Positions 2,261 to 18,277 of a stretch of DNA of 24,739 nt are shown in pieces. Each line of letters opens with the position of its first letter. The stretch's first letter is position 1. The stretch comes from a virus: positions 1 through 24,739 of IMG/VR virus record IMGVR_UViG_3300038701_001244. One strand, given 5' to 3'. The notes beneath the pieces were generated by a model. It was given only the letters and a program-made list of their open reading frames with translations. It was not told the origin of the DNA and ran no database searches. The translations under genes were made by a program, and so were the position numbers.

Positions 2261-2398
2261 TTGTTTATCAGGGCAATAAAACACAATAATCTAATTTGGA
2301 AAGTGGTGGGTATTTCTCCAAGCGGTCAATACTTAAAAATAAAAAGGGGAGATAAAATAAAACTTATCTCAAAAAGCGAAATGAGGAAATTGAAATGA
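2252..2398 (+). CDS. Small basic protein (up to 48 aa), non-AUG start
   Basis: The frame is open from 2225 and closes with TGA at 2396-2398, overlapping the next ATG (2395) in an ATGA junction. The C-terminal 30 residues (from WKVVGISPSGQYLKIKRG onward) have convincing protein character, with mixed hydrophobic and basic residues and a GDKIKL turn. There is no ATG. Possible starts are TTG 2252, TTG 2261, or a codon about 6 nt after the GGAGG at 2256-2260 (ATC 2267). Entry by +1 frameshift from the 28-codon ORF ending at 2250 is also possible. The start coordinate is therefore uncertain. The coupling to the fibre gene argues that it is expressed. Its function is unknown. Confidence 0.45.
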   Translation: MWRLFIRAIKHNNLIWKVVGISPSGQYLKIKRGDKIKLISKSEMRKLK

Positions 2399-5300
2399 AA
2401 AAAATACTATTTGTTCTGATGATTATCGGAACGACAATTTTCGGACAAACAAAAATACCGACTCCAGATAGTGCGAAAGCATGGTATTCTATGCCCGAGG
2501 TTACAAGTATAGATACATCGGATAAATTTATGATTAGAAGGAATACACCATTAAGTCATGTTATAAGATGGTCAAATGCTATTGCTGACCTTCCGCAGTT
2601 TGACTCTGCGTCTGTTTGGAGCAATGTAGTTACTTTTGACTCGACTGTTTATTTTAACGACTCGGTTTATTTCAATCATTTAGTTTGGTTTGATTCCACG
2701 GTTGAGTTTAATCAATATACTTTTTTTGATTCTGCTGCAACTTTTAACGATACGGTAAATTTTAACGGGAGTGCTGATTTTAATAATTCTGTTTATTTAG
2801 ACTCGGTCTTAATATCAAATGATACCGCTTATTTTAATTCAGATGCAGTTTTTGATCTTACCTCCGAAGTATTGTTTAGAGATACAGTTACTTTTGATGG
2901 AAATTCTGAAATAATAATCGCAACAAAGACAGATTACGTTGCGGGGAGTGAGATATTGTTACCCGCTTTGTGGTCTTCGTCTTTAGATAGATCATTCGGG
3001 ACTAATGGCGGTTTGATGCTATTTAATTATTCTGCTGGATTAACTGACACGATGATTTCACGAAGATATCTAAGAAACACAACAGAATTAAATACAAAAT
3101 ATGCTCGATTGGATACAGCGAATACATTCACAAGTGATAACACTTTTTCGGGAGGCTATACAAGATTAAGGAGGGCAAATGTAGACAGTTCGTTAACATT
3201 CTCTGTATTGGCTGGTCTTGAATTACCACAATCACAGCCTTTGGCCGTTTCAAATAACGGGATGCTGTGGAGTGCTTCGGGGTCGACCGAATCAATATTG
3301 ATTTCAAATTACAATCTAACATCAACAGATACTTTGGCCACCCGTGAATGGACTCGAAGTAATTACTCAACAAATCTTTTACCAAGAAACAATACGTGGT
3401 CGGGGACTAATGACTTTCAAGGGCTGACGGATTTAGATCAAACGGTGGTAAATGATATTTTATATTTTGCTGCTTCAAACTCCGCTTTTAGATTGCCGAA
3501 TCCTACCCCGGTAACACCGAGTAATGGTTTATTGTGGCATAAAACAAATTCAAGTGAACCGTTGTTATTAACAACCTATAATACTTCGTCTGTTGATACT
3601 CTAGCTACCCGAAGATGGAATAGGGCCAATGATGCTGGTGAAGATAACACCGCTTCTAATGTCGGTGCGGGTGATGGATGGTTTAAGCAAAAGTCTGCTT
3701 CTGATTTACAATTTAAAAGCTTTATTACTGGGACTGACTTAACAGTATCAAACAACGCTAATGACTTAACTCTTTCTTTATCTTCAAATATTCCAAGACT
3801 TAACGGCTCGAATACTTGGACAAGCACAAACACATTTAATAGCACAGTGGGGTTAAACGGTACAACAACCGTAAATAGCAACCTTGGTTTTGGTTCTTCT
3901 GGAAGGTTGACTTCCTTAAACCAAGCAAGTTTATTATTTTCTTACGAATTGGCATTTTTAACGGGAACAAATTTAATCGCAACTTATGGGGTTTCGTCTT
4001 TGGATACTTTAGCAACTAGAAGTTATTCAAGAGATAACGCAACTTACTTATTAAACCAAAATAATACTTGGACGGGGACAAACAATTTTAATACCTCTTT
4101 GACTAGTATTAGAAATGCTAAGATTGATTCTGTTTTGAGATTCCCCGCTTTAGCTGGGATGATTTTACCATCTACACAGCCATTGGCGGCTAGTGAAAAC
4201 GGCTGGATTTGGCAAACATCGAACGCATCTGAACCAGTTTTAATAACTAATTATAATATCACCTCTGTGGATACTTTGTCTAGTCGCAGATGGGTTAGGA
4301 ATAACGTTAATACAAGTGATTTACTTAGCTTAAATAATACTTGGACGGGAACTAATACATACAGTTCAACGGTAACGCTAAACAGCTTATCAGTTGTAAA
4401 TGATTTGTTAAGGTTTGACTCTGGGTCGGGGTTAAGGTTACCGCCCGTTATACCAAGCGTGCCTTCAAATGGTTTGATTTGGCAAAACTCAAATTCATCT
4501 GAATCTTTATTGATGACTATTTATAATTCAAGCTCAGTTGATACTTTAGCTACCCGAAGGTGGCATAGAAACAACGCATCTTTACCAAGCAATGTAGCAT
4601 ACACAGACCAGAATCAAACATTCACCGGAGATAATACATTTTCGGGTGGTGAAACTAGAATAAGGGATATGAAAATAGATAGCGTTTTGGCCTTCCCGTC
4701 TTTGACTGCTCTAATATTGCCGCCATCTCCACCACTAGCCACGACAACGAACGGTCTTTTGTGGCAAAATACGGGAGCAACCGAGCCGCTATTGATTACT
4801 AATTATAATAATACTTCGGTCGATACGTTGGCCACAAGAAGGTGGCATCGCAACAATTTGTCGAGTGGCAATGAATTTGATTCTCTGTATACTGACAGAC
4901 TAATACCATTGACTGCATCGCAAATAAACATTGACATAAGATCAAAAAGTACAGGCGGGGCGGCATTAGGTTTTTACGATGTGAACCAAATTTATTATGG
5001 AAGATTTTATGCGTCTGCTCCGACGGCTCCACAATTAGGCTTTTTAGATAAAGATAACCACTGGTCTTATAAACATATTTCGGACGATCGGCACGAATGG
5101 AGCATAAACAATACTGAACACATGCAGTTAGACGAAGACGGTTTATTTATAAATAATAGTTTAGCGATTGAAGAAAATAATGTAACAAGTGGGGCAACCA
5201 TTGACGTATCAGACAAAACTTTCTTGCAATTAGATTATTCAGCAACTACCACAATAACTAATTTTACAAATGGAGTTGTGGGGCAACTATTGTACATAAC

Positions 5301-5454
5301 CAAAACGGGCGGGGCATCGGTAACTATTCAAAATGATAACTCAAATATACATTTGGAAGGTTCAACAAATTTATTATTACCTACAAATTCAATGATAATC
5401 TTAATGAAGTCCGATAACGGATGGATTCAAGCAGCACCAGCGAGTATAAATTAA
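2395..5454 (+). CDS. Long repeat-built tail fibre with N-terminal signal peptide
   Basis: The 1019-residue product starts with a clear signal peptide (MKKILFVLMIIGTTIFGQ), with likely cleavage before Q. Residues about 65-150 carry short FDSTVYFND-type repeats, suggesting a beta-helical or trimeric shaft. Residues about 185-825 hold roughly seven diverged units of 75-90 residues. Each contains a hydrophobic strand, a P-rich turn, NGLLW, then SVDTLATRRW, and several are joined by NNTWTGTNTF linkers. Residues 930-1019 form a C-terminal module ending DNGWIQAAPASIN, like fibre tips that carry a beta-sandwich. The start has GAGGAA upstream and an ATGA overlap with the small gene before it. A fibre or receptor-binding role is strongly supported; the export signal on a virion protein is unexpected. 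Confidence 0.75.
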   Translation: MKKILFVLMIIGTTIFGQTKIPTPDSAKAWYSMPEVTSIDTSDKFMIRRNTPLSHVIRWSNAIADLPQFDSASVWSNVVTFDSTVYFNDSVYFNHLVWFDSTVEFNQYTFFDSAATFNDTVNFNGSADFNNSVYLDSVLISNDTAYFNSDAVFDLTSEVLFRDTVTFDGNSEIIIATKTDYVAGSEILLPALWSSSLDRSFGTNGGLMLFNYSAGLTDTMISRRYLRNTTELNTKYARLDTANTFTSDNTFSGGYTRLRRANVDSSLTFSVLAGLELPQSQPLAVSNNGMLWSASGSTESILISNYNLTSTDTLATREWTRSNYSTNLLPRNNTWSGTNDFQGLTDLDQTVVNDILYFAASNSAFRLPNPTPVTPSNGLLWHKTNSSEPLLLTTYNTSSVDTLATRRWNRANDAGEDNTASNVGAGDGWFKQKSASDLQFKSFITGTDLTVSNNANDLTLSLSSNIPRLNGSNTWTSTNTFNSTVGLNGTTTVNSNLGFGSSGRLTSLNQASLLFSYELAFLTGTNLIATYGVSSLDTLATRSYSRDNATYLLNQNNTWTGTNNFNTSLTSIRNAKIDSVLRFPALAGMILPSTQPLAASENGWIWQTSNASEPVLITNYNITSVDTLSSRRWVRNNVNTSDLLSLNNTWTGTNTYSSTVTLNSLSVVNDLLRFDSGSGLRLPPVIPSVPSNGLIWQNSNSSESLLMTIYNSSSVDTLATRRWHRNNASLPSNVAYTDQNQTFTGDNTFSGGETRIRDMKIDSVLAFPSLTALILPPSPPLATTTNGLLWQNTGATEPLLITNYNNTSVDTLATRRWHRNNLSSGNEFDSLYTDRLIPLTASQINIDIRSKSTGGAALGFYDVNQIYYGRFYASAPTAPQLGFLDKDNHWSYKHISDDRHEWSINNTEHMQLDEDGLFINNSLAIEENNVTSGATIDVSDKTFLQLDYSATTTITNFTNGVVGQLLYITKTGGASVTIQNDNSNIHLEGSTNLLLPTNSMIILMKSDNGWIQAAPASIN
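3159..4860 (+). repeat. Tandem diverged fibre repeats (protein level, about 6-7 units)
   Basis: Units of roughly 225-290 bp recur through the middle of the fibre gene. The most conserved protein segment is a DTLATRRW-like stretch, near coordinates 3330, 3595, 4003, 4267, 4541 and 4823, followed by RNN or a similar turn. An NNTWTGTNTF-like linker is present between several units. DNA identity is modest, so these are old duplications under protein-level selection, not recent copies. A more diverged first unit precedes 3159. Confidence 0.7.
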
Positions 5455-5466
5455 AAAGGTTCAATC

Positions 5467-7908
5467 ATGGCAACAACTGAAAATACTGTAATAATTCGAT
5501 ATGATATTGACCCGGATGGGAATAGAAAAAAACAAGATGAATTGACTCAATCTATTATCGAAAATTCGGAAGCAATAAAACAGAATAAAGCACAGCAAAA
5601 AGAATTGACTAAAGCTAGTGGGGATAATACCGAAGCGGTTAAAAGTCTACAAAAAGAAGAATTAAAACTAAAAGATCGGGGTCGGGAATTAAACGCAGAA
5701 AGGCGGGAAGCGGTTAAGGTCTCCAAGTTGCAATCAAATAGTTTGGCACTTGCAAGAAAACGAACCGCAGAATTAACAAAAACCCGTGATAATTTAAATC
5801 TTGCGACAAAGCAAGGCAGAAAACAATTTGCTGAACTTACAAAAGAGATTAAAAGGAATAACGATTTTGTCCAAGATGCAGATAAAGAAGCGGGTAATTT
5901 TAAATCCTCTATTGGTGGTTATGAACAAGCGATTACAAGTGCTTTGGGCCCGATGGGTGCACAAATAACCGCATTGCAACAGACCGTGACCGGACTAAAA
6001 GCATCAAAAGTCGCACTTGCTGCTAATACTAAAGTATTGGGGTTATTTAAAAAGGCTTTAGTTAGTACGGGAATAGGTGCATTGGTTGTTGCTCTTGGAT
6101 CATTTATTACATTCTTAACAAAGACACAAGACGGACTAGACGGGGTAAATAAGTTCCTTGATCAAGTTGGGGCAGTTGTAGATGTTTTGATTGGTCGTTT
6201 TGCTAAATTTGGCGAAGTGGTGAGCTTTATTCTAGATCGTGAATTTAGTATGGCATGGGATGCTGCTGGTGAGGCAGTCTCCGGGGTTACTGATGAAATG
6301 GCGGGTGCAGTTGAACAAGCTGGGGCATTGCACGATTTAAATATACAAATTGAAGAGGACGAATCTAGAATTGCCCTTGCAAACTCTGAAAGAAGAAAAC
6401 AAATTCAAGAGCTTATATTTTTAACTAGAGATGAATCGGTAAGTTTTGAGGAAAGGCGTAAAGCACTAGAAGAAGCCAATAAGCTGGAAAATGCTATCTT
6501 AAAAGACAATTTAGATTTACAAGCTCAAAAAATACAGTCAATTAAAGATGAAATAGCAGCCACTCCAGAAAATTTAAGAAATAGACAACAAGAGATAGAT
6601 TTACAAGCAGCTTTAACAGATCAAAACGATTTACAATCTCTTTCTTTAGCAAAACAAAGGGAATTACTCAATAGGCTTAACGAATTAGAGAATAAACGCA
6701 GAGCACAAGCAAAGGCAAGTTTAGAAGAACAAAAGAAAATTGATGAAATAAGGGAAAAGAATTTGACCGAAGCGAAACTTGCTGCGGAAAAATTAGCAGA
6801 AGCCGAAGCGGAAACTCAAAAATTCATTTTATCCCAAGAACAGGAAGCCCAGCTCGAAAGATTAAAAGGAACCAAAGAGTTTTATAATAAACGATCTGCA
6901 TTTGCTGAAGAAAATTTTAATATGGAAGTTGAACGGCTAAACGAAGAACGCCATGCTATTTTAGAAAATGACGAAATAACATTTTTAGAAAAACAGCTTT
7001 TATTAGAAGAAAATAATTTGGCACACCTGGAAATACAGAAAGAATTTAGGGATGAATTAAACCAGATAAATGAGGAATCAGAGCAAAAACAAACCGACAC
7101 CGCAGAAAAATTTGCACAAGAAAGGAACAATATATTCCAACAAGGGCAACAAGTTTTATTTTCTGCCCTTAATCAGTCTTTGATAGCAGAAGACGCCCGT
7201 ATTAGTCGAAGTTATGACAAAAGACAAAACGATTTAAGAAAAGCTCTTGATAATGGATTGATAACACAAGAGGAATATGATAAAAAACAAGCACAACTAG
7301 AAAAAAACAGAGCGAGGGAAGAATATAAAGTCGCACTTGCTCAATTTAAAGTAAATCAAACGGAAGCATTAGCAAATATCGCAATTGATACGGCTCAAAA
7401 CGTTATCGAAGCTTATCCGAATCCTTTCCTTATTGCTGGTGCTTTGGCTTTAGGTGCTGCACAAGCTTTAATTGTTAGACAACAACCAGCCCCAGCACCT
7501 CCAAGTTTTGCTGATGGTGGCGAAGTGCCTTTAAAATCCGGAACGTTCGGAGGTAAACCTCACGAACTTGGGGGAACTCCTATTTTTGATGGTGCTGGAA
7601 AACAATTAGCAGAGGTCGAAGCAAATGAAAAGTTTTTCGTATTAAATGAACGCGCATCGGCTTTTATTGACGGATTGGATAATATTAACCAGATGTTTGG
7701 GGGTAGGTCGTTAAAGCAGCCAAGCGTTAAGTTTATGCGTGAAGGTGGCCAGTTAAATGTGGATGATAATAGCCAAGTGGAGAATATTGTCAGATCGACA
7801 CTTGACAGTTTCCTAAAAAATACTAATATTAACGTTCAAGTGTCCGACATCATCAACGGAGTTGATACCTTCCAGAATACCGTTAATGTCGGAATTGAAC
7901 AATCATAA
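5467..7908 (+). CDS. Tail tape measure protein
   Basis: This 813-residue protein sets tail length and is threaded through the tail tube. Residues about 15-140 are charged and coiled-coil-like. A hydrophobic segment lies near 198-218 (GIGALVVALGSFITFL), and long K/E/Q-rich coiled coil runs from about 290 to 640. A second hydrophobic patch lies near 650-675 (NPFLIAGALALGAAQALIV). It is followed by PAPAPPSFADGGEV and a G-rich stretch with KPHELGGTPIF, which is characteristic of tape measure C-termini in Bacteroidetes phages. It sits 13 nt after the fibre gene, with AAAAGG upstream. The length suggests a flexible tail in the 100-nm class. It is unusual in lying directly upstream of the head genes. 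Confidence 0.88.
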   Translation: MATTENTVIIRYDIDPDGNRKKQDELTQSIIENSEAIKQNKAQQKELTKASGDNTEAVKSLQKEELKLKDRGRELNAERREAVKVSKLQSNSLALARKRTAELTKTRDNLNLATKQGRKQFAELTKEIKRNNDFVQDADKEAGNFKSSIGGYEQAITSALGPMGAQITALQQTVTGLKASKVALAANTKVLGLFKKALVSTGIGALVVALGSFITFLTKTQDGLDGVNKFLDQVGAVVDVLIGRFAKFGEVVSFILDREFSMAWDAAGEAVSGVTDEMAGAVEQAGALHDLNIQIEEDESRIALANSERRKQIQELIFLTRDESVSFEERRKALEEANKLENAILKDNLDLQAQKIQSIKDEIAATPENLRNRQQEIDLQAALTDQNDLQSLSLAKQRELLNRLNELENKRRAQAKASLEEQKKIDEIREKNLTEAKLAAEKLAEAEAETQKFILSQEQEAQLERLKGTKEFYNKRSAFAEENFNMEVERLNEERHAILENDEITFLEKQLLLEENNLAHLEIQKEFRDELNQINEESEQKQTDTAEKFAQERNNIFQQGQQVLFSALNQSLIAEDARISRSYDKRQNDLRKALDNGLITQEEYDKKQAQLEKNRAREEYKVALAQFKVNQTEALANIAIDTAQNVIEAYPNPFLIAGALALGAAQALIVRQQPAPAPPSFADGGEVPLKSGTFGGKPHELGGTPIFDGAGKQLAEVEANEKFFVLNERASAFIDGLDNINQMFGGRSLKQPSVKFMREGGQLNVDDNSQVENIVRSTLDSFLKNTNINVQVSDIINGVDTFQNTVNVGIEQS

Positions 7909-7920
7909 GGATTGCAAATC

Positions 7921-8997
7921 ATGAAAATAATTCAAATTCATAACACAATTGATAATGATTCATTCTTGGGAATGGGTGAGCATGGTTATATTTCTAAAAA
8001 AGTAGATGAGTTTAATGAGGATTTAGAAGAACCGATTTTACTTTCTCTAAATACTCCGGGTGGTTATGTCTATGATGGTTATAATTTGCTCGGTGCAATG
8101 GATGATCACAAAGGAAAAATTACAGCAGTTGTTGAAGGCTTGGCCGCTTCGATGGGTGCTTATTTTATGGCTTATGCTGATGAGGCAAAAGCGAGAAGTT
8201 TTGCCCGAATAATGTTGCACAAAGCATACAATCCATATATCGACTACATCGAGGACGAAAAAGAGAAAGAAATAATGCAAGAACAGTTGAATGTTATGAA
8301 TCAAAATCTTGCGAAAGCTTTTAAGACTCGTGGAGCCAATCCCGCACTAATCGACCAGATATTTTCTGATGAAAACAATCTTGACTTTTGGTTTTCTGCT
8401 GAAGAAGCTCTTGAAAATGGTCTTATTGATGAAATAATCGGATCGGCTGGACACGGTGACGCTGTTAAAATCGCAGCAATGGAAAAAGAAACTGAACAAT
8501 TTAAAGTATATTGGAATAACAACCCTAAATTTTATAAAAAAGACGAGGAAACAATGGGAATTTTTAATAAGGAAGAAATCCTATCGAAAGTAAACGATTT
8601 TGAATCTGCTCTTGGTGGACTTGGTGATAAGGTCACAGAAATGTCAGAAACATTGGCAAGTGTAAACGAAAAGCTTAATTCAATTTCTGAAATGCAAAAT
8701 AAGGTTGATGAACTACAAAAAATAGTTGATGAAACAAAAGAAAGTGTTGCTGATGATAAAAAAGCGTTTGAGCTTTCAGTAAAAACTATTGCTGAGGATT
8801 TGGAATCACATGCAGAAGCAACAAAAGAAACGGTTGAGGCTGTGCAAAATGATATTGAAACTGTAAAAAACGAAGTTAAGGAATCTCTGGAAGGTTTGCA
8901 AACTAACTTTACTCCAGACGAAAACCCAGAAATCGAAACAGACCCTTATAAAGAGATAGTAGAAATTAACAAAAAAAATGATCGCAGAAACAGATAA
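7921..8997 (+). CDS. ClpP-type prohead protease with C-terminal scaffold domain
   Basis: The N-terminal 190 residues are a ClpP/S14-like serine protease. They contain NTPGG, the nucleophile motif GLAASMGA (Ser77 counted from ATG 7921), IMLHK with the likely catalytic His100, and GLIDEIIG near the end of the domain. Such enzymes mature the procapsid by cleaving scaffold and themselves. The C-terminal part, from about residue 212, is acidic coiled coil (repeated VNDFES-, KVDELQK- and ETVEAVQND-like heptads), as expected for a scaffolding domain. A TTG in frame at 7912 is only 1-2 nt from the AAGG ribosome site, so ATG 7921, about 10 nt from it, is preferred. The major capsid gene follows directly, as in many phages. 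Confidence 0.85.
   Translation: MKIIQIHNTIDNDSFLGMGEHGYISKKVDEFNEDLEEPILLSLNTPGGYVYDGYNLLGAMDDHKGKITAVVEGLAASMGAYFMAYADEAKARSFARIMLHKAYNPYIDYIEDEKEKEIMQEQLNVMNQNLAKAFKTRGANPALIDQIFSDENNLDFWFSAEEALENGLIDEIIGSAGHGDAVKIAAMEKETEQFKVYWNNNPKFYKKDEETMGIFNKEEILSKVNDFESALGGLGDKVTEMSETLASVNEKLNSISEMQNKVDELQKIVDETKESVADDKKAFELSVKTIAEDLESHAEATKETVEAVQNDIETVKNEVKESLEGLQTNFTPDENPEIETDPYKEIVEINKKNDRRNR
8554..8997 (+). CDS. Likely nested scaffolding protein (internal start, 147 aa)
   Basis: Inside the protease gene and in the same frame, ATG 8554 is preceded by GAGGAA at the right distance (GAGGAAACA-ATG). From here the product is purely acidic, heptad-rich scaffold sequence starting MGIFNKEEILSKVNDFES. Translation from this site would give free scaffold in addition to the protease-scaffold fusion, as known for lambda C/Nu3 and relatives. 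The ribosome site and domain boundary are seen directly; separate expression is inferred. Confidence 0.55.
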   Translation: MGIFNKEEILSKVNDFESALGGLGDKVTEMSETLASVNEKLNSISEMQNKVDELQKIVDETKESVADDKKAFELSVKTIAEDLESHAEATKETVEAVQNDIETVKNEVKESLEGLQTNFTPDENPEIETDPYKEIVEINKKNDRRNR

Positions 8998-9023
8998 CAA
9001 ATTTTTAAATTTTGGAGGATGAA

Positions 9024-10001
9024 ATGCCTAAAAGACTAGCGGAAATATTTCCGAAAAACACTATCACGCACACAATGGACGGCAAGTATGAAGCGTCCAA
9101 CGCTGCTGATATTTACAAAATTTTAACAACTGGCGGAGAGTGGGATTCTTATTTACGCACTTTCACCGGATTAACAAAGCCAAAGGTTTTAGCTAAATCA
9201 AAATCAAGCGGTTCTTTATTACAAGCTTCGGCAGATCGTCCACGTTTGGGGACTAATGATCTTGGTGGAGTTGCTTTTTCTTACAGACTTTTAGAAGTTG
9301 CTGAAATGATGGTTCATTTACCATTAGACCCGGACGATTGGAGAGATGAGTTCCCAGATTGGCAACCATCGGGCAATATGTTGAATCTTGAATATGCTTC
9401 TCAAATTTCCGATACTATAATCGAGACATTATTACAACAAGTTAAAACCTATAATTCCGATCTTTATGTTCAAGGTGATGATTCTTTAAGTTCGCCATCA
9501 CAATTAAGATTTTTTGATGGGTTCTTAAAAATTATGGCTGCTGATGCTGATGTTGTTGATGTTGCGAATGTTGGTGTTTTAACTACTTCTAATATTTTGT
9601 CGGTGCTTAATTCCGTTAAGGATGCAAGACCAACAAGATTAAGAACTCGACCTAACCAAGCAATTTTTATGAGTTATACAGATTGGGATAAAGCACAAGA
9701 AGCAAATAAAGCTTCAAACGCTCAAGATATTAGTTTCTTAGAGCAAGGCGACATTGGACGCATTGATAATGTTCCTTTAATCCCAATGAACTCAGTACCG
9801 GAAAATTCAATGTTTTGGACTATTGCGGGAACTGGTGAAGACTCTAATTTAGTTCGTGGTGTTTGGTTCCAAGAGGACGAACAGAACTTTATTATAGCGA
9901 AAGAAGCCGAAGGCGATAAGACTTGGAAATTTTTAATGAGATATTTAGATGGCGTTCAATACCGAACTGGTGAAGACGTTGTTTTATATCAAGGTTCGTA
10001 A
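9024..10001 (+). CDS. Major capsid protein (HK97-fold type)
   Basis: The 325-residue protein follows the protease/scaffold gene. It has the composition and layout of an HK97-like major capsid protein: a charged N-terminal arm, a segment like an E-loop (residues about 40-75, with SSGSLLQASADRPRLGTNDL), a long helix near ISDTIIETLLQQ, a P-domain-like middle and a final strand RTGEDVVLYQGS. ATG 9024 is chosen because GGAGG at 9014-9018 lies 5 nt upstream; the in-frame TTG at 9012 overlaps that site. There is no cleaved delta domain, since scaffold is attached to the protease. The assignment rests on context and general features, not on a specific motif. Confidence 0.8.
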   Translation: MPKRLAEIFPKNTITHTMDGKYEASNAADIYKILTTGGEWDSYLRTFTGLTKPKVLAKSKSSGSLLQASADRPRLGTNDLGGVAFSYRLLEVAEMMVHLPLDPDDWRDEFPDWQPSGNMLNLEYASQISDTIIETLLQQVKTYNSDLYVQGDDSLSSPSQLRFFDGFLKIMAADADVVDVANVGVLTTSNILSVLNSVKDARPTRLRTRPNQAIFMSYTDWDKAQEANKASNAQDISFLEQGDIGRIDNVPLIPMNSVPENSMFWTIAGTGEDSNLVRGVWFQEDEQNFIIAKEAEGDKTWKFLMRYLDGVQYRTGEDVVLYQGS

Positions 10002-11536: not shown

Positions 11537-12667
11537 ATGAGAACGATAAAGAGATCGCTTAACAGACCGCAGAACAAAAATAAAAAAATAAACGTTTCTA
11601 GCGTTACGAATGATGTTGAGGTCGGGCGTTGTATGAATCACAAAAAAATGATTCCTTACGGCTCTGATAATCTTTATCCTAATAAAATGGACGACATTGT
11701 TAGAAACTCCCCAACCACAAAGGGGTGCGTAAACGTTAAAAAAGAATTTATTTTTGGCTTAGGTCAAGAGGGCGGGGACTTTGAAGTAAACAAAAAGGGT
11801 AAAACCTTTAATGATATTTTGATTAAATCTGTTGAAGATTATGCAAAATTTAACGGCTTTGCCCTGCACTTTAATGTTAATGGTCTTGGCCGTATTGTTG
11901 AAATAAACAATCTTGATTTCCGATACACAAGGAAGCATTATAACAGTAAAGACGCTTTCTATGGAAACATAATGAGAACCTCAACAATGAACGGTGATCT
12001 TTTTATAATACCCTTGTATAATCCAAAGAATTTCAGAAGGACTGTCCGTGATGCGGGTGGTCTTTCTAGTTTTAATGGTTGGATTTATTATTTTCAATCT
12101 AATGGGAATGTCTATCCAGAGGCTTCGCATAATGCAAGTTCAACGAGTGGAATGTTTGAGGACTCAGTTCAATCTTTTAATTATTCGACTATCGAAAATT
12201 CTTTCTCTGCTTCTGGTGTGGTTAAAGTCCCGCAGAATGTAAACGGGGAAGACACGACAAAGAATGTCAAAAAGCAACTAAAGAAAATGAAGGGTTCTGA
12301 TAACGCTGGTTCAATGATTGTAATTGAATCTCCTTTGGGTGCAGATGGCGAGTCTAAAAATAGTAATATTTATGAGTCTTTTACTTTACCTAACATAGAT
12401 AATATGTTTAACAACCAAGTTAAAAACGCAAAGGATTCTATTCTAAGAGAATACAGAGTCCCAGAAATTTTACTTGGAACGCCAGAACAAGGAATGTTTA
12501 ATCAAACCGAATATTATGAAGCTAGTAATTATTATAATAATTTAACTTTTGGTGATAGAAAGGCAGTGGAAAGGGCGTTTAATAAATTTTGGGATAATAC
12601 CGTTTTCCCATTGCAGCAGATTGAAATAACACCCTTAGAAATGGAGCAGCTAAATGATACCGAATGA
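11537..12667 (+). CDS. Phage portal protein
   Basis: The 376-residue protein has portal hallmarks of Bacteroidetes phages: an N-terminal YGSDNLYPNKMDDIVRNSPT segment, a middle clip/stem region, and C-terminal REYRVPEILLGTPEQGMFNQ followed by a helix ending RKAVERAFNKFWDN, the typical portal crown/stem motif. The portal forms the dodecameric DNA gate at one capsid vertex. It is somewhat shorter than common portals (400-500 residues). It begins right after the preceding stop and overlaps the next gene by 14 nt. It lies downstream of the capsid gene, the reverse of the usual order. Confidence 0.82.
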   Translation: MRTIKRSLNRPQNKNKKINVSSVTNDVEVGRCMNHKKMIPYGSDNLYPNKMDDIVRNSPTTKGCVNVKKEFIFGLGQEGGDFEVNKKGKTFNDILIKSVEDYAKFNGFALHFNVNGLGRIVEINNLDFRYTRKHYNSKDAFYGNIMRTSTMNGDLFIIPLYNPKNFRRTVRDAGGLSSFNGWIYYFQSNGNVYPEASHNASSTSGMFEDSVQSFNYSTIENSFSASGVVKVPQNVNGEDTTKNVKKQLKKMKGSDNAGSMIVIESPLGADGESKNSNIYESFTLPNIDNMFNNQVKNAKDSILREYRVPEILLGTPEQGMFNQTEYYEASNYYNNLTFGDRKAVERAFNKFWDNTVFPLQQIEITPLEMEQLNDTE

Positions 12668-13214
12668 AGCAGCTTTAATCGACATTGATTTTGTCAGAGA
12701 GATAAGACAGTTTGATAAAAATTATAACTCAAACGCTTTCGATGCTATTGTATTGGAAGTACAAAGAAAATTCTTGTTGCCGACAATAGGTTATCCTTTA
12801 TATAAAGACCTTATTGATAATCCGACTGAATCAAGAAATGTTGATCTTTTGGACGGTGCAGAATATACATATAACGGCAAGGATAAATTTTATTATGGCA
12901 TTAAATTTTATGTAGCTTATAAGTTTTTAGAGATTTACGCAAAAGAGGGGAAAGTAAAATTACAAGAAAAAGGAAGGTCTGAGTTAATAAGCGATTTCAC
13001 GTCAAATAGAGATACTAGATTAAGTCAAGACGTTTGGAATCAATACAAAGATTCAGCGAACGAAAATGCTACGGATTTATTAGAATTTTTAGATGTTAAC
13101 CAAGACGTTTACACTTTATTTCAAAGCTCTAATACATCCACAGCACAAAACGAAAAGGTTAACTTTTCAGTTATCGGCAATGAATATAATAAACCGAGCC
13201 CAAAATGTTATTAA
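12654..13214 (+). CDS. Head-tail connector (adaptor)-like protein
   Basis: The 186-residue, mainly helical protein contains LPTIGYPLYKDLIDNP, an acidic loop, then FYYGIKFYVAYKFLEIYAKEGKVKL. This helix-rich layout resembles gp6-type connector proteins that sit under the portal. The start overlaps the portal end, with GGAG about 8 nt upstream. A disordered, S/T/N-rich C-terminus follows (FQSSNTSTAQN). Position and fold style support a connector; the exact family is not certain. Confidence 0.6.
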   Translation: MIPNEAALIDIDFVREIRQFDKNYNSNAFDAIVLEVQRKFLLPTIGYPLYKDLIDNPTESRNVDLLDGAEYTYNGKDKFYYGIKFYVAYKFLEIYAKEGKVKLQEKGRSELISDFTSNRDTRLSQDVWNQYKDSANENATDLLEFLDVNQDVYTLFQSSNTSTAQNEKVNFSVIGNEYNKPSPKCY

Positions 13215-13738
13215 GTGAACTTTATTTAATATCGACCACAGACAAAACGCCTTTTGTATTTGAGCCGGATTCTATTTTTGATAGCATTGGTTTAAATAAC
13301 TCTAATGAACAAATAATTGACAGCCTTGTTCTAAATAGTGCAGTTTATAGATTTGGTCTTCCGTGCTCACGTTTGGAATTTAACCATTCTTATGACCAAG
13401 GGCGGGAATTATATCAACCCTTTGGTGGTTCTTTGGCTCATTATAGTTATACTCTTTCAATATTAAATGAATATGGTTCGATAACAATCAGTGATTTTTG
13501 GGACACTTTCGGGAGTCTTGCAAGCAATAATTACCAGTGTATTTTTAAAACAACTGATGGCACTTGGTATATTTGCTACGCAGAACTAGAAGCTGAATCG
13601 TTCAATAATAATTATGCTGATAAGTTAATTATAACTCTAAGAGCGAACGATGTAAAGGAGGGGCTATATGAGATCGAATCTTTTTCAACTAATTCACTAA
13701 CTGTTGATTATGATTTCACAATTGGGGCAATAACATGA
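13205..13738 (+). CDS. Neck/tail hypothetical protein (177 aa)
   Basis: The product starts MLLSELYLISTTDKTPFVFE and has alternating beta strands and aromatic residues, with GTWYICYAELEAE followed by KLIITLRANDV. It overlaps the connector by 10 nt and the next gene by 4 nt (ATGA). In this position a head-closure (stopper) or tail protein would be expected, but I do not recognise the family. Confidence 0.55.
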   Translation: MLLSELYLISTTDKTPFVFEPDSIFDSIGLNNSNEQIIDSLVLNSAVYRFGLPCSRLEFNHSYDQGRELYQPFGGSLAHYSYTLSILNEYGSITISDFWDTFGSLASNNYQCIFKTTDGTWYICYAELEAESFNNNYADKLIITLRANDVKEGLYEIESFSTNSLTVDYDFTIGAIT

Positions 13739-14328
13739 TTTTGAAAATAAACAATAAAAAATATAATATACCAAAATTTTCAGAGTTGACGGTCGAGCAG
13801 TACATAAGGGTGGTTGCTCACGGTGTCAATCTAAATGTAATATCTTATTTAGAATCTTTTGTTGATGAAAATATCCACGATTCTAAAGTTGATAGCAATA
13901 TCTCTGCTGCAGAGTTGGAATCTTTATTATTCGACTGTGACCCAGATTTTCAGAAAATAAAAATGTTAAATGTTTTTAATGATGTTCCAGTCTCAGAAAT
14001 GGACAAGGAATCTAAATTTGGAGTAAGATACTATTTTTCCAAATACCACAAAGAATGTGCTGCGGGGAAAATTAGTGTAGTTGAATTGTGCGTTCGTGCT
14101 TTGGCCGTAACATTAGATTATAAAAATCAAGATGAACTTTATAAAACTTTGTTAAAAAGAAAATGGTCTGAGGTTTTACCGATAGGATTTTTTTTTACTC
14201 AAAAATTCTCGGGGAACAAGATTTCTTTACGGAAGCTATTAACGGTATCAATAGCCAAGCTTTACAGTTTCCTAGTTCGGGCGGGAATGTCACTAAAATA
14301 CCAGTGGACACTTTTGATGCAACGTTAA
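13735..14328 (+). CDS. Tail assembly chaperone-like protein, short (zero-frame) form
   Basis: The 197-residue zero-frame product begins MILKINNKKYNIPKFSELTVEQYIRV, a common opening of chaperone-like proteins encoded near tail genes. Residues 1-150 look like a normal helical protein. After a run of nine T at 14188-14196 the zero frame encodes 43 residues that are basic and hydrophobic, ending in TAA at 14326-14328. The -1 frame downstream has better protein character. In the lambda G/GT system the short form is the major product. The start overlaps the previous stop. Confidence 0.65.
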   Translation: MILKINNKKYNIPKFSELTVEQYIRVVAHGVNLNVISYLESFVDENIHDSKVDSNISAAELESLLFDCDPDFQKIKMLNVFNDVPVSEMDKESKFGVRYYFSKYHKECAAGKISVVELCVRALAVTLDYKNQDELYKTLLKRKWSEVLPIGFFFTQKFSGNKISLRKLLTVSIAKLYSFLVRAGMSLKYQWTLLMQR

Positions 14329-14480
14329 TAAATTATTGTTCTTTGTCTAACATGAAACCCGAAGAAGTTTTAGAGGAGAGTTATAACTTTGTAATGATGA
14401 TCACGATAAACCAAATGAAAATAAATATAAATTCACATAATGAACAAGTTTCCAGATATTTAGCGAATAGACATAAATGA
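13735..14480 (+). CDS. Tail assembly chaperone-like fusion protein (-1 frameshift product)
   Basis: This is read as join(13735..14196, 14196..14480), giving about 248 residues: 154 from the zero frame and 94 from the -1 frame. The added part begins YSKILGEQDFFTEAINGINS and ends VSRYLANRHK. It includes an acidic helix PEEVLEESYNFVMMIT and stops at TGA 14478-14480, overlapping the next ATG (14477). Without frameshifting, 148 bases between 14328 and 14477 would be non-coding in a region where every other junction overlaps. This matches gpG/gpGT-type tail chaperones, whose long form recruits tube and tape measure. A sequencing or natural frameshift mutation is the alternative. Confidence 0.7.
14188..14196 (+). 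promoter_or_regulatory. Probable -1 ribosomal frameshift site (slippery T9)
   Basis: In the frame of the 13735 gene the site reads GGA TTT TTT TTT ACT, containing the T-TTT-TTT heptamer that fits the X-XXY-YYZ rule. A GAGG at 14170-14173, about 14 nt upstream, could act as a stimulatory ribosome-binding sequence as in dnaX. A perfect 6-bp hairpin (14235-14240 with 14250-14255) is present but about 38 nt downstream, which is far for a stimulator. A -1 shift opens a frame ending exactly in an ATGA overlap with the next gene. Confidence 0.75.
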
Positions 14481-14908
14481 GTACTTGGACAGAAATAGAA
14501 TCATTATTAAGAACGCAGTCCTTATCGGTTGCAGATGAGTTTTATGTCACCTCATTAGAGGAAATGGAACACGAATCATTTGAGTTTGATGGGACTGTAA
14601 TTTGCCTTGATGTTAAAGACCAGAAAGGCTCAAAATCGTTCACTAATAGGGGTACAGTACAAGACATTTATCCTTTAGATATTTATATCATACAGAACCA
14701 AGAAACGGACGATAGCGAAGCAGACATAAGTTCTATCTTTTCTGCTTGTAACGTAATCGCGGGGCAATTGTTGTATAATCTAAATGAAGTTTTTGAGGAT
14801 ATTTTACCAGTTCAAAACGCTAATATATCGAGAGTCCGAAATGTTACGGGGAATGTTTGGGCTGGTGTTTTAATGAATATAAGTTTAGCGACTGAGTGCA
14901 ATAGATGA
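14477..14908 (+). CDS. Tail terminator/completion-like protein
   Basis: The 143-residue protein starts MSTWTEIESLLRTQ. It has central strands (DIYPLDIYIIQNQET), a helix (IFSACNVIAGQLLYNLNEVFE) and an ending typical of tail terminator or completion proteins: a conserved-looking RNVTGNVWAGVLMNISLAT strand pair. These proteins cap the tail tube at the neck. It overlaps the chaperone-like gene (ATGA) and the next gene by 4 nt. The fold-level resemblance is moderate. Confidence 0.5.
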   Translation: MSTWTEIESLLRTQSLSVADEFYVTSLEEMEHESFEFDGTVICLDVKDQKGSKSFTNRGTVQDIYPLDIYIIQNQETDDSEADISSIFSACNVIAGQLLYNLNEVFEDILPVQNANISRVRNVTGNVWAGVLMNISLATECNR

Positions 14909-18102: not shown

Positions 18103-18109
18103 GTAATCT

Positions 18110-18277
18110 ATGGAAAACTTTATTGATAATTTTAAGGTATGGGGGGTAAATCTCCCGATTTTAGGTTTTGTTGGTATTGCTGATATTGAGTCTATTTTAA
18201 GCATTATATTATTGTGCTTATCAATTTATTACACAATTATTTCAATTATTAAAAAGAGCAAAGAGAGGAAAAAATGA
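18110..18277 (+). CDS. Small membrane protein, holin candidate (55 aa)
   Basis: The product has an amphipathic N-terminus (MENFIDNFKVWGVNLP), a hydrophobic segment with a short polar break at ADIES, a strong span (ILSIILLCLSIYYTIISII) and a basic tail (KKSKERKK). This topology fits small phage holins in Bacteroidetes phages. It starts 8 nt after the LamG gene and ends in an ATGA overlap with the next gene. It opens the lysis cassette that ends with the endolysin. Holin is inferred from size, topology and place. Confidence 0.6.
   Translation: MENFIDNFKVWGVNLPILGFVGIADIESILSIILLCLSIYYTIISIIKKSKERKK

Follow-up and report, generated by a model that had tools for sequence, protein, structure and literature searches.

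Introduction

Equivalents of the lambda G and GT proteins are widespread in long-tailed phages, and their classical place is just 5' of the tape measure gene. A downstream stimulator structure is usual, but not obligatory, for programmed -1 ribosomal frameshifting. That tail assembly chaperones use programmed frameshifting is textbook knowledge (PMC5009743, PMC10885494), and some of the frameshifts in tailed phages work without stimulators (PMC5009743). Bacterial genes and IS elements provide known cases of transcriptional slippage on runs of nine A or nine T (PMC1088944). In many bacteria, selection against runs of A or T begins to show at a length of nine, an effect ascribed in part to transcriptional slippage (PMC1088944), and in E. 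coli the heptamer UUUUUUU is avoided in all frames (PMC4066793). In the open-access literature we found no description of a phage tail gene that uses transcriptional slippage, and no paper that joins tail-chaperone recoding with slippage on A9 or T9 or that describes the gene family presented here.

We analyzed a 24,739-base record of an uncultured virus (hereafter the window; 36% G+C), which carries an operon of virion genes on the plus strand. One of these genes, starting at 13735, resembles lambda G/GT in several ways. It is a single gene that specifies a short product and a -1 extension of comparable size in overlapping frames, it comes from a phage with a tape measure protein, and it shows no evident RNA stimulator. 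It differs from lambda G/GT in three respects: no sequence or fold match was detected, its slip site is a strict run of nine T (T9), and in the window and its relatives it stands 0.2-6 kb to the 3' side of the tape measure gene or ~7.5-12 kb to the 5' side. With genes that use transcriptional slippage (Thermus dnaX with its A9, Shigella mxiE and spa13, and several IS transposases; PMC1088944, PMC5009743) it shares a homopolymer in overlapping frames and two proteins per gene, and several of those genes need no downstream structure. The known cases of transcriptional slippage are in bacterial genes, IS elements and RNA viruses, whereas the T9 gene belongs to a phage and is known from sequence alone. 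A gene of ~293-301 aa in the Duneviridae (Cellulophaga phage Ingeline, Flavobacterium phage FPSV-F7), Bacteroidota phages, has a similar total length, is followed by a gene of ~153 aa and, in Ingeline, lies between the adaptor and tape measure genes. It differs in being a single continuous open reading frame, and hhalign gave a probability of <1% for a relationship.

Sequence comparison shows a conserved, programmed -1 switch at the T9 that would let the gene at 13735 make two products, and its likeliest identity is that of a G/GT-type tail assembly chaperone; we hold this combined reading to be probable.

Results

A run of nine T and an open -1 frame

At 14185-14199 the gene that starts at 13735 has the sequence GGA TTT TTT TTT ACT. 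The T9 (14188-14196) is in phase, as had been claimed in a preliminary description of this DNA, lies 151 codons after the ATG and contains the in-phase heptamer T_TTT_TTT. The zero frame (13735-14328, plus strand) ends at 14328 and encodes a predicted short product of 197 aa, in which a 151-aa N-terminal domain (N-domain), conserved in 18 relatives, is followed by the GFFF of the T-run and by a zero-frame tail. From 14196 the -1 frame runs for 94 codons (YSKILGEQ...RHK) to a TGA at 14478-14480. This stop overlaps the ATG at 14477 of the next gene in the sequence ATGA, exactly as described before. The predicted fusion product is 248 aa long, with the junction GFFF-YSKILG, and the two tails overlap at 14197-14328. 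The next gene (14477-14908, plus strand, 143 aa) is a conserved neighbor of ~150 aa across the relatives, for which we found no protein family.

Long homopolymers are scarce in the window. There is one T9 or A9, compared with 8.2 expected from dinucleotide shuffles; runs of A or T of length 6, 7, 8 and 9 number 37, 11, 5 and 1, and none is longer than nine. The zero-frame stop leaves a gap of 148 nt before the next gene. This gap had been called the only sizeable one in the operon, and it is the largest within ~5.4-18.1 kb; outside that interval there are larger gaps of 245 nt (2150-2394) and 171 nt (18103-18273).

The two-frame gene follows a series of head-tail genes on the plus strand. These are a portal gene (11537-12667; phrog_11226, E=2.5e-39), a gene for a DUF6712 protein (12654-13214; Pfam PF20459, E=9e-12) that is likely a head-tail connector, judging by its place after the portal gene, and, directly 5' of the two-frame gene, a gene encoding 177 aa (13205-13738). 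The last of these had no family match in Pfam and PHROG searches and has counterparts at the same position in two relatives (L010 and L011). The tape measure gene (5467-7908, plus strand; PHROG tail length tape measure, E=1.7e-6 and 3.4e-6) is 5.8 kb upstream, in agreement with the earlier estimate of about 6 kb.

The run of nine T is conserved in diverged relatives

We identified relatives by protein-level searches whose patterns all left out the T-run. Scanning genomes with the N-terminal part turned up a 4-kb contig in a Calditrichia metagenome bin (L010). Its N-terminal part is 40% identical to that of the window, it has the same T9 and an open -1 frame, and its gene order is that of the window: portal, connector, a 171-aa gene, the two-frame gene and a 148-aa gene. 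Alignments of the N-terminal part and the portal led to further virus contigs, and a profile search detected the two-frame gene in 13 of 28 portal-bearing records. Two added protein-pattern scans, one for the N-domain without Phe codons and one for the -1 tail, contributed five more distinct members. The resulting 18 further distinct relatives comprise 17 in uncultured virus contigs and the one in the Calditrichia bin. Where measured, their N-domains are 21-40% identical to that of the window; the median pairwise identity is 32% and the minimum 19%.

Other searches were negative. There was no true match in 50,697 phage records by tblastn with the window's N-terminal part, the fused window protein or the fused proteins of two relatives (weak matches in MT835619 and MT836929 are to tyrosine recombinases and were discarded), and none in single-protein scans of viral contigs with the N-terminal part, the capsid or the portal as query. 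A search of the phylum Calditrichota (40 genomes) returned solely the genome of the already known locus. The window's proteins have no close kin among the 50,697 phage records, and its portal is 20-24% identical to those of Cellulophaga, Bacteroides and Elizabethkingia phages.

Exactly nine T were present at the homologous codons in 18 of the 19 distinct sequences (the window counted), and ten in the remaining one (L047). The site codons in the 17 T9 members that we tabulated are GGT TTT TTT TTC (n = 11), GCT TTT TTT TTG (n = 3), and one instance each of GGT TTT TTT TTG, GGT TTT TTT TTA and, in the window, GGA TTT TTT TTT. The window run thus begins and ends one base later than in the GGT and GCT relatives, and its length is still nine. 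Phe-Phe pairs are written TTTTTT in 5 of 11 cases elsewhere in these genes and in all 17 at the site. Recent ancestry does not explain the T9, because the N-domains are so diverged and because the 60 nt directly 5' of the site have at most 68% nucleotide identity for any pair of the 17.

The -1 frame is open for 91-96 codons in all 17 tabulated members. Its stop lies between -17 and +5 nt from the next start in every one of them, with an overlap of exactly 4 nt in 12, and the zero-frame stop falls 97-202 nt short of the next gene. Because 17 further T9 relatives also keep the run, an open -1 frame and a next gene that abuts it, we regard programmed access to that frame as strongly supported by comparative sequence evidence, and with 18 relatives the occurrence of a T9 with an open -1 frame is not due to chance. 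The preliminary description had proposed comparing homologues for the T-run and the -1 frame, and had held that relatives with a continuous frame and no T-run would speak against recoding. The comparison gave the opposite result: the -1 frame is open and conserved, and even the lone T10 member keeps a T-run.

Polymerase slippage is slightly preferred over ribosomal frameshifting

Most expression of the gene would lead to the short protein of 197 aa, and slippage on the T9 would lead to the long protein of 248 aa, with a 94-residue extension that is probably helical. The slip could be a realignment of RNA polymerase on the T9, producing mRNAs with one extra U, or a tandem -1 slippage of the ribosome on T_TTT_TTT. 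We have a slight preference for RNA polymerase. The preliminary description had proposed a -1 ribosomal frameshift. Its switch into the -1 frame is upheld by our analysis; its choice of the ribosome is no likelier than RNA polymerase.

The strongest competing explanation accepts the same two-frame gene and attributes the switch to canonical programmed -1 ribosomal frameshifting on T_TTT_TTT, with no role for polymerase slippage; we give it a little less than an even chance. A T9 contains T_TTT_TTT in phase whatever its register, and each of the 18 T9 members has this heptamer. The frameshifts known from tail chaperones occur in the ribosome and may do without stimulators (PMC5009743). For a ribosome, however, seven T would be enough, yet nine are found in 18 of the 19 sequences and no other type of heptamer occurs. 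Folding z-scores for the 60-90 nt 3' of the site in 17 sequences scatter around 0, giving no sign of a stimulator. Because the run length is strict and no RNA structure is seen, transcriptional slippage is at least as likely as ribosomal slippage. Polymerase slippage would also fit the conservation of nine T through the shift in register between the window's GGA-T9 and its GGT and GCT relatives, and we also count in its favor that nine is the run length at which selection against A/T runs sets in (PMC1088944). Transcriptional slippage is expected to go with a homopolymer of at least nine and a conserved shifted frame, and we found T9 in 18 of the 19 sequences and T10 in one. It may also be that the third T-rich codon is kept by the amino-acid needs of both frames (Phe or Leu in the zero frame, Phe in the -1 frame) and not by run length.

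The T10 member bears directly on the choice and, if real, is the single datum that separates the two slip mechanisms by sequence. Its run is at 1914-1923 of L047, and the zero frame reads directly into the long product, with 93 further residues, an observation that favors polymerase slippage over a ribosomal -1 shift. The +1 frame holds the tail of the short product, which stops after 27 residues. The tenth T is either a homopolymer assembly error or the mark of a member in which slippage yields the short form.

The product may be a tail assembly chaperone

Our best reading of the gene is a putative G/GT-like tail assembly chaperone. This reading is favored because every relative searched has a tape measure gene: we found a homologue in the window and in 13 of 13 relative records. 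By analogy, and given the two-frame architecture and the presence of that gene, the abundant short form would coat the tape measure protein, and the long form, present in few copies, would recruit the tail tube subunit. Two overlapping frames, encoding a short product and a shifted long one, are predicted from the sequence in the window and in 17 T9 relatives.

The location of the gene is unusual. In the window it is not at the classical site immediately before the tape measure gene, a peculiarity that is a property of the family, because in the window and the 11 relatives in which both genes could be placed the two-frame gene was never directly 5' of the tape measure gene. It lies 3' of it by 0.2 kb in G019, 1 kb in G028 and 5.8 kb in the window, and ~7.5-12 kb 5' of it in eight relatives (assuming for G010 and G017 that the contig is circular). 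In G025 (L063) the two-frame gene is at 7703-8143 on the minus strand and the tape measure gene at 32652-35111 on the plus strand, placing them in different transcription units. We saw no second two-frame candidate just 5' of the window's tape measure gene.

Homology searches gave no significant match of the N- or C-terminal part to a known tail chaperone in Pfam, PHROGs or PDB sequences; the PHROG and Pfam matches were weak and to families of unknown function. In 5 of 18 members the C-terminal domain weakly matched phrog_10445 (E about 1e-4), but this family also matched 13 of 14 control genomes in a six-frame search, and we set the match aside as nonspecific. We modeled the two domains separately with AlphaFold. 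The N-domain model is moderately confident (pLDDT 80), with a beta hairpin followed by helices, and the model of the -1 domain is all-helical and of low confidence (pLDDT 69). Neither gave a significant match to a known chaperone fold with Foldseek (PDB for the N-domain, BFVD for both). The best viral fold match (E=1.4, not significant) was in Flavobacterium phage 6H and led to the Duneviridae gene, which hhalign rejected. Chaperone families diverge widely, so the missing match is weak evidence against a chaperone function.

The earlier description of the gene as tail-chaperone-like is therefore borne out by the two-frame architecture and the accompanying tape measure gene, and not by profile or fold matches or by a place 5' of the tape measure gene. 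We do not file the gene as a member of the G/GT group, because neither its position nor its homology places it there. It could instead be a real two-product virion or assembly gene with another task, such as a protein of the neck, of tail completion or of capsid assembly that comes in two lengths. We regard this as unlikely, with a chance that is still appreciable. The gene sits among head-tail genes (the portal gene, the DUF6712 gene, the adjoining 5' gene and the gene at 14477) and not beside the tape measure gene, and it has no chaperone homology; yet making a short and a long product through a -1 shift is what characterizes G/GT in long-tailed phages, and in two relatives the gene is just 3' of the tape measure gene. 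A narrower form of the chaperone reading, in which an undescribed chaperone family is unlinked from the tape measure gene and its ratio of short to long product is set by RNA polymerase slipping on exactly nine T, is offered tentatively, as clearly short of an even chance.

The -1 frame is a conserved extension of the gene

The protein encoded by the -1 tail is conserved, with the motif YxEIQTLCxLLNxDxExxLxxxDxFxxKxLLxN..FE, which is fainter in the window's own closest group. Divergence at the three codon positions in the single-coding part of the -1 frame was 0.29/0.23/0.48, the third position being the most variable. Between its preceding stop and the run, the -1 frame lacks a start codon in 14 of the 17 members, and in 16 of them the first 16 codons of the tail contain none.

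Sequencing error, an indel and internal initiation are ruled out in our view because the -1 frame is conserved, abuts the next gene and is mostly without a start. That a continuous gene was broken by a one-base indel in the T-run, through sequencing or assembly error or decay, is very improbable: homopolymers are error-prone and L047 does have a T10 and a continuous frame, but the T9 recurs in 18 distinct sequences from many samples, and the conserved -1 tail abuts the next gene in all T9 members tested. Least probable of all is that the -1 frame is a gene in its own right. In 3 of the 17 members a TTG or GTG 10 codons before the run could serve as its start, but the other 14 have no start there, and it is at the run that the conserved -1 frame sets in.

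The zero-frame tail after the T-run (14197-14328 in the window) is basic and hydrophobic in the window and its relatives and has 27-59 codons, exactly 36 in many relatives. It is open for somewhat longer than in recoded controls (geometric mean P 0.14), and its similarity score exceeds that of recoded sequences (1.23 vs 0.73 ± 0.085). The third-frame control was raised too, so we do not claim selection on the zero-frame tail, which is not separable from shared ancestry; these sequence comparisons are suggestive of it.

Implications and other features of the window

The T9 genes add a deeply diverged family of recoded genes that protein-family libraries miss, and their fixed T9 lends itself to a clean test of transcriptional against translational recoding in the same role. 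If the chaperone reading is true, annotation by the rule of searching immediately before the tape measure gene can miss such genes; they, and their -1 extensions of ~95 codons, which gene callers drop, have probably been overlooked in many environmental phages.

The virion genes of the window are mosaic, with capsid kin in the Bacteroides phage p00 and jmh_hp records and the nearest portals in Cellulophaga and Bacteroides phages. The relation of the major capsid protein (9012-10001) to the capsid of the p00 and jmh_hp records is distant (25%). Those records carry Mu-like transposase genes. Directly 5' of the tape measure gene, a 1019-aa protein (2395-5454) has a signal-peptide-like start and repeated SVDTLATRRWHRNN and GLLWQNS motifs that resemble tail-fibre repeats. 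Finally, the 191-aa gene of phage 6H (L081, 10352-10927) is a truncated form of the continuous ~293-aa gene of FPSV-F7 (L082, 2498-3379), its >98% identical relative; an indel seems to be present at this place in the 6H record.
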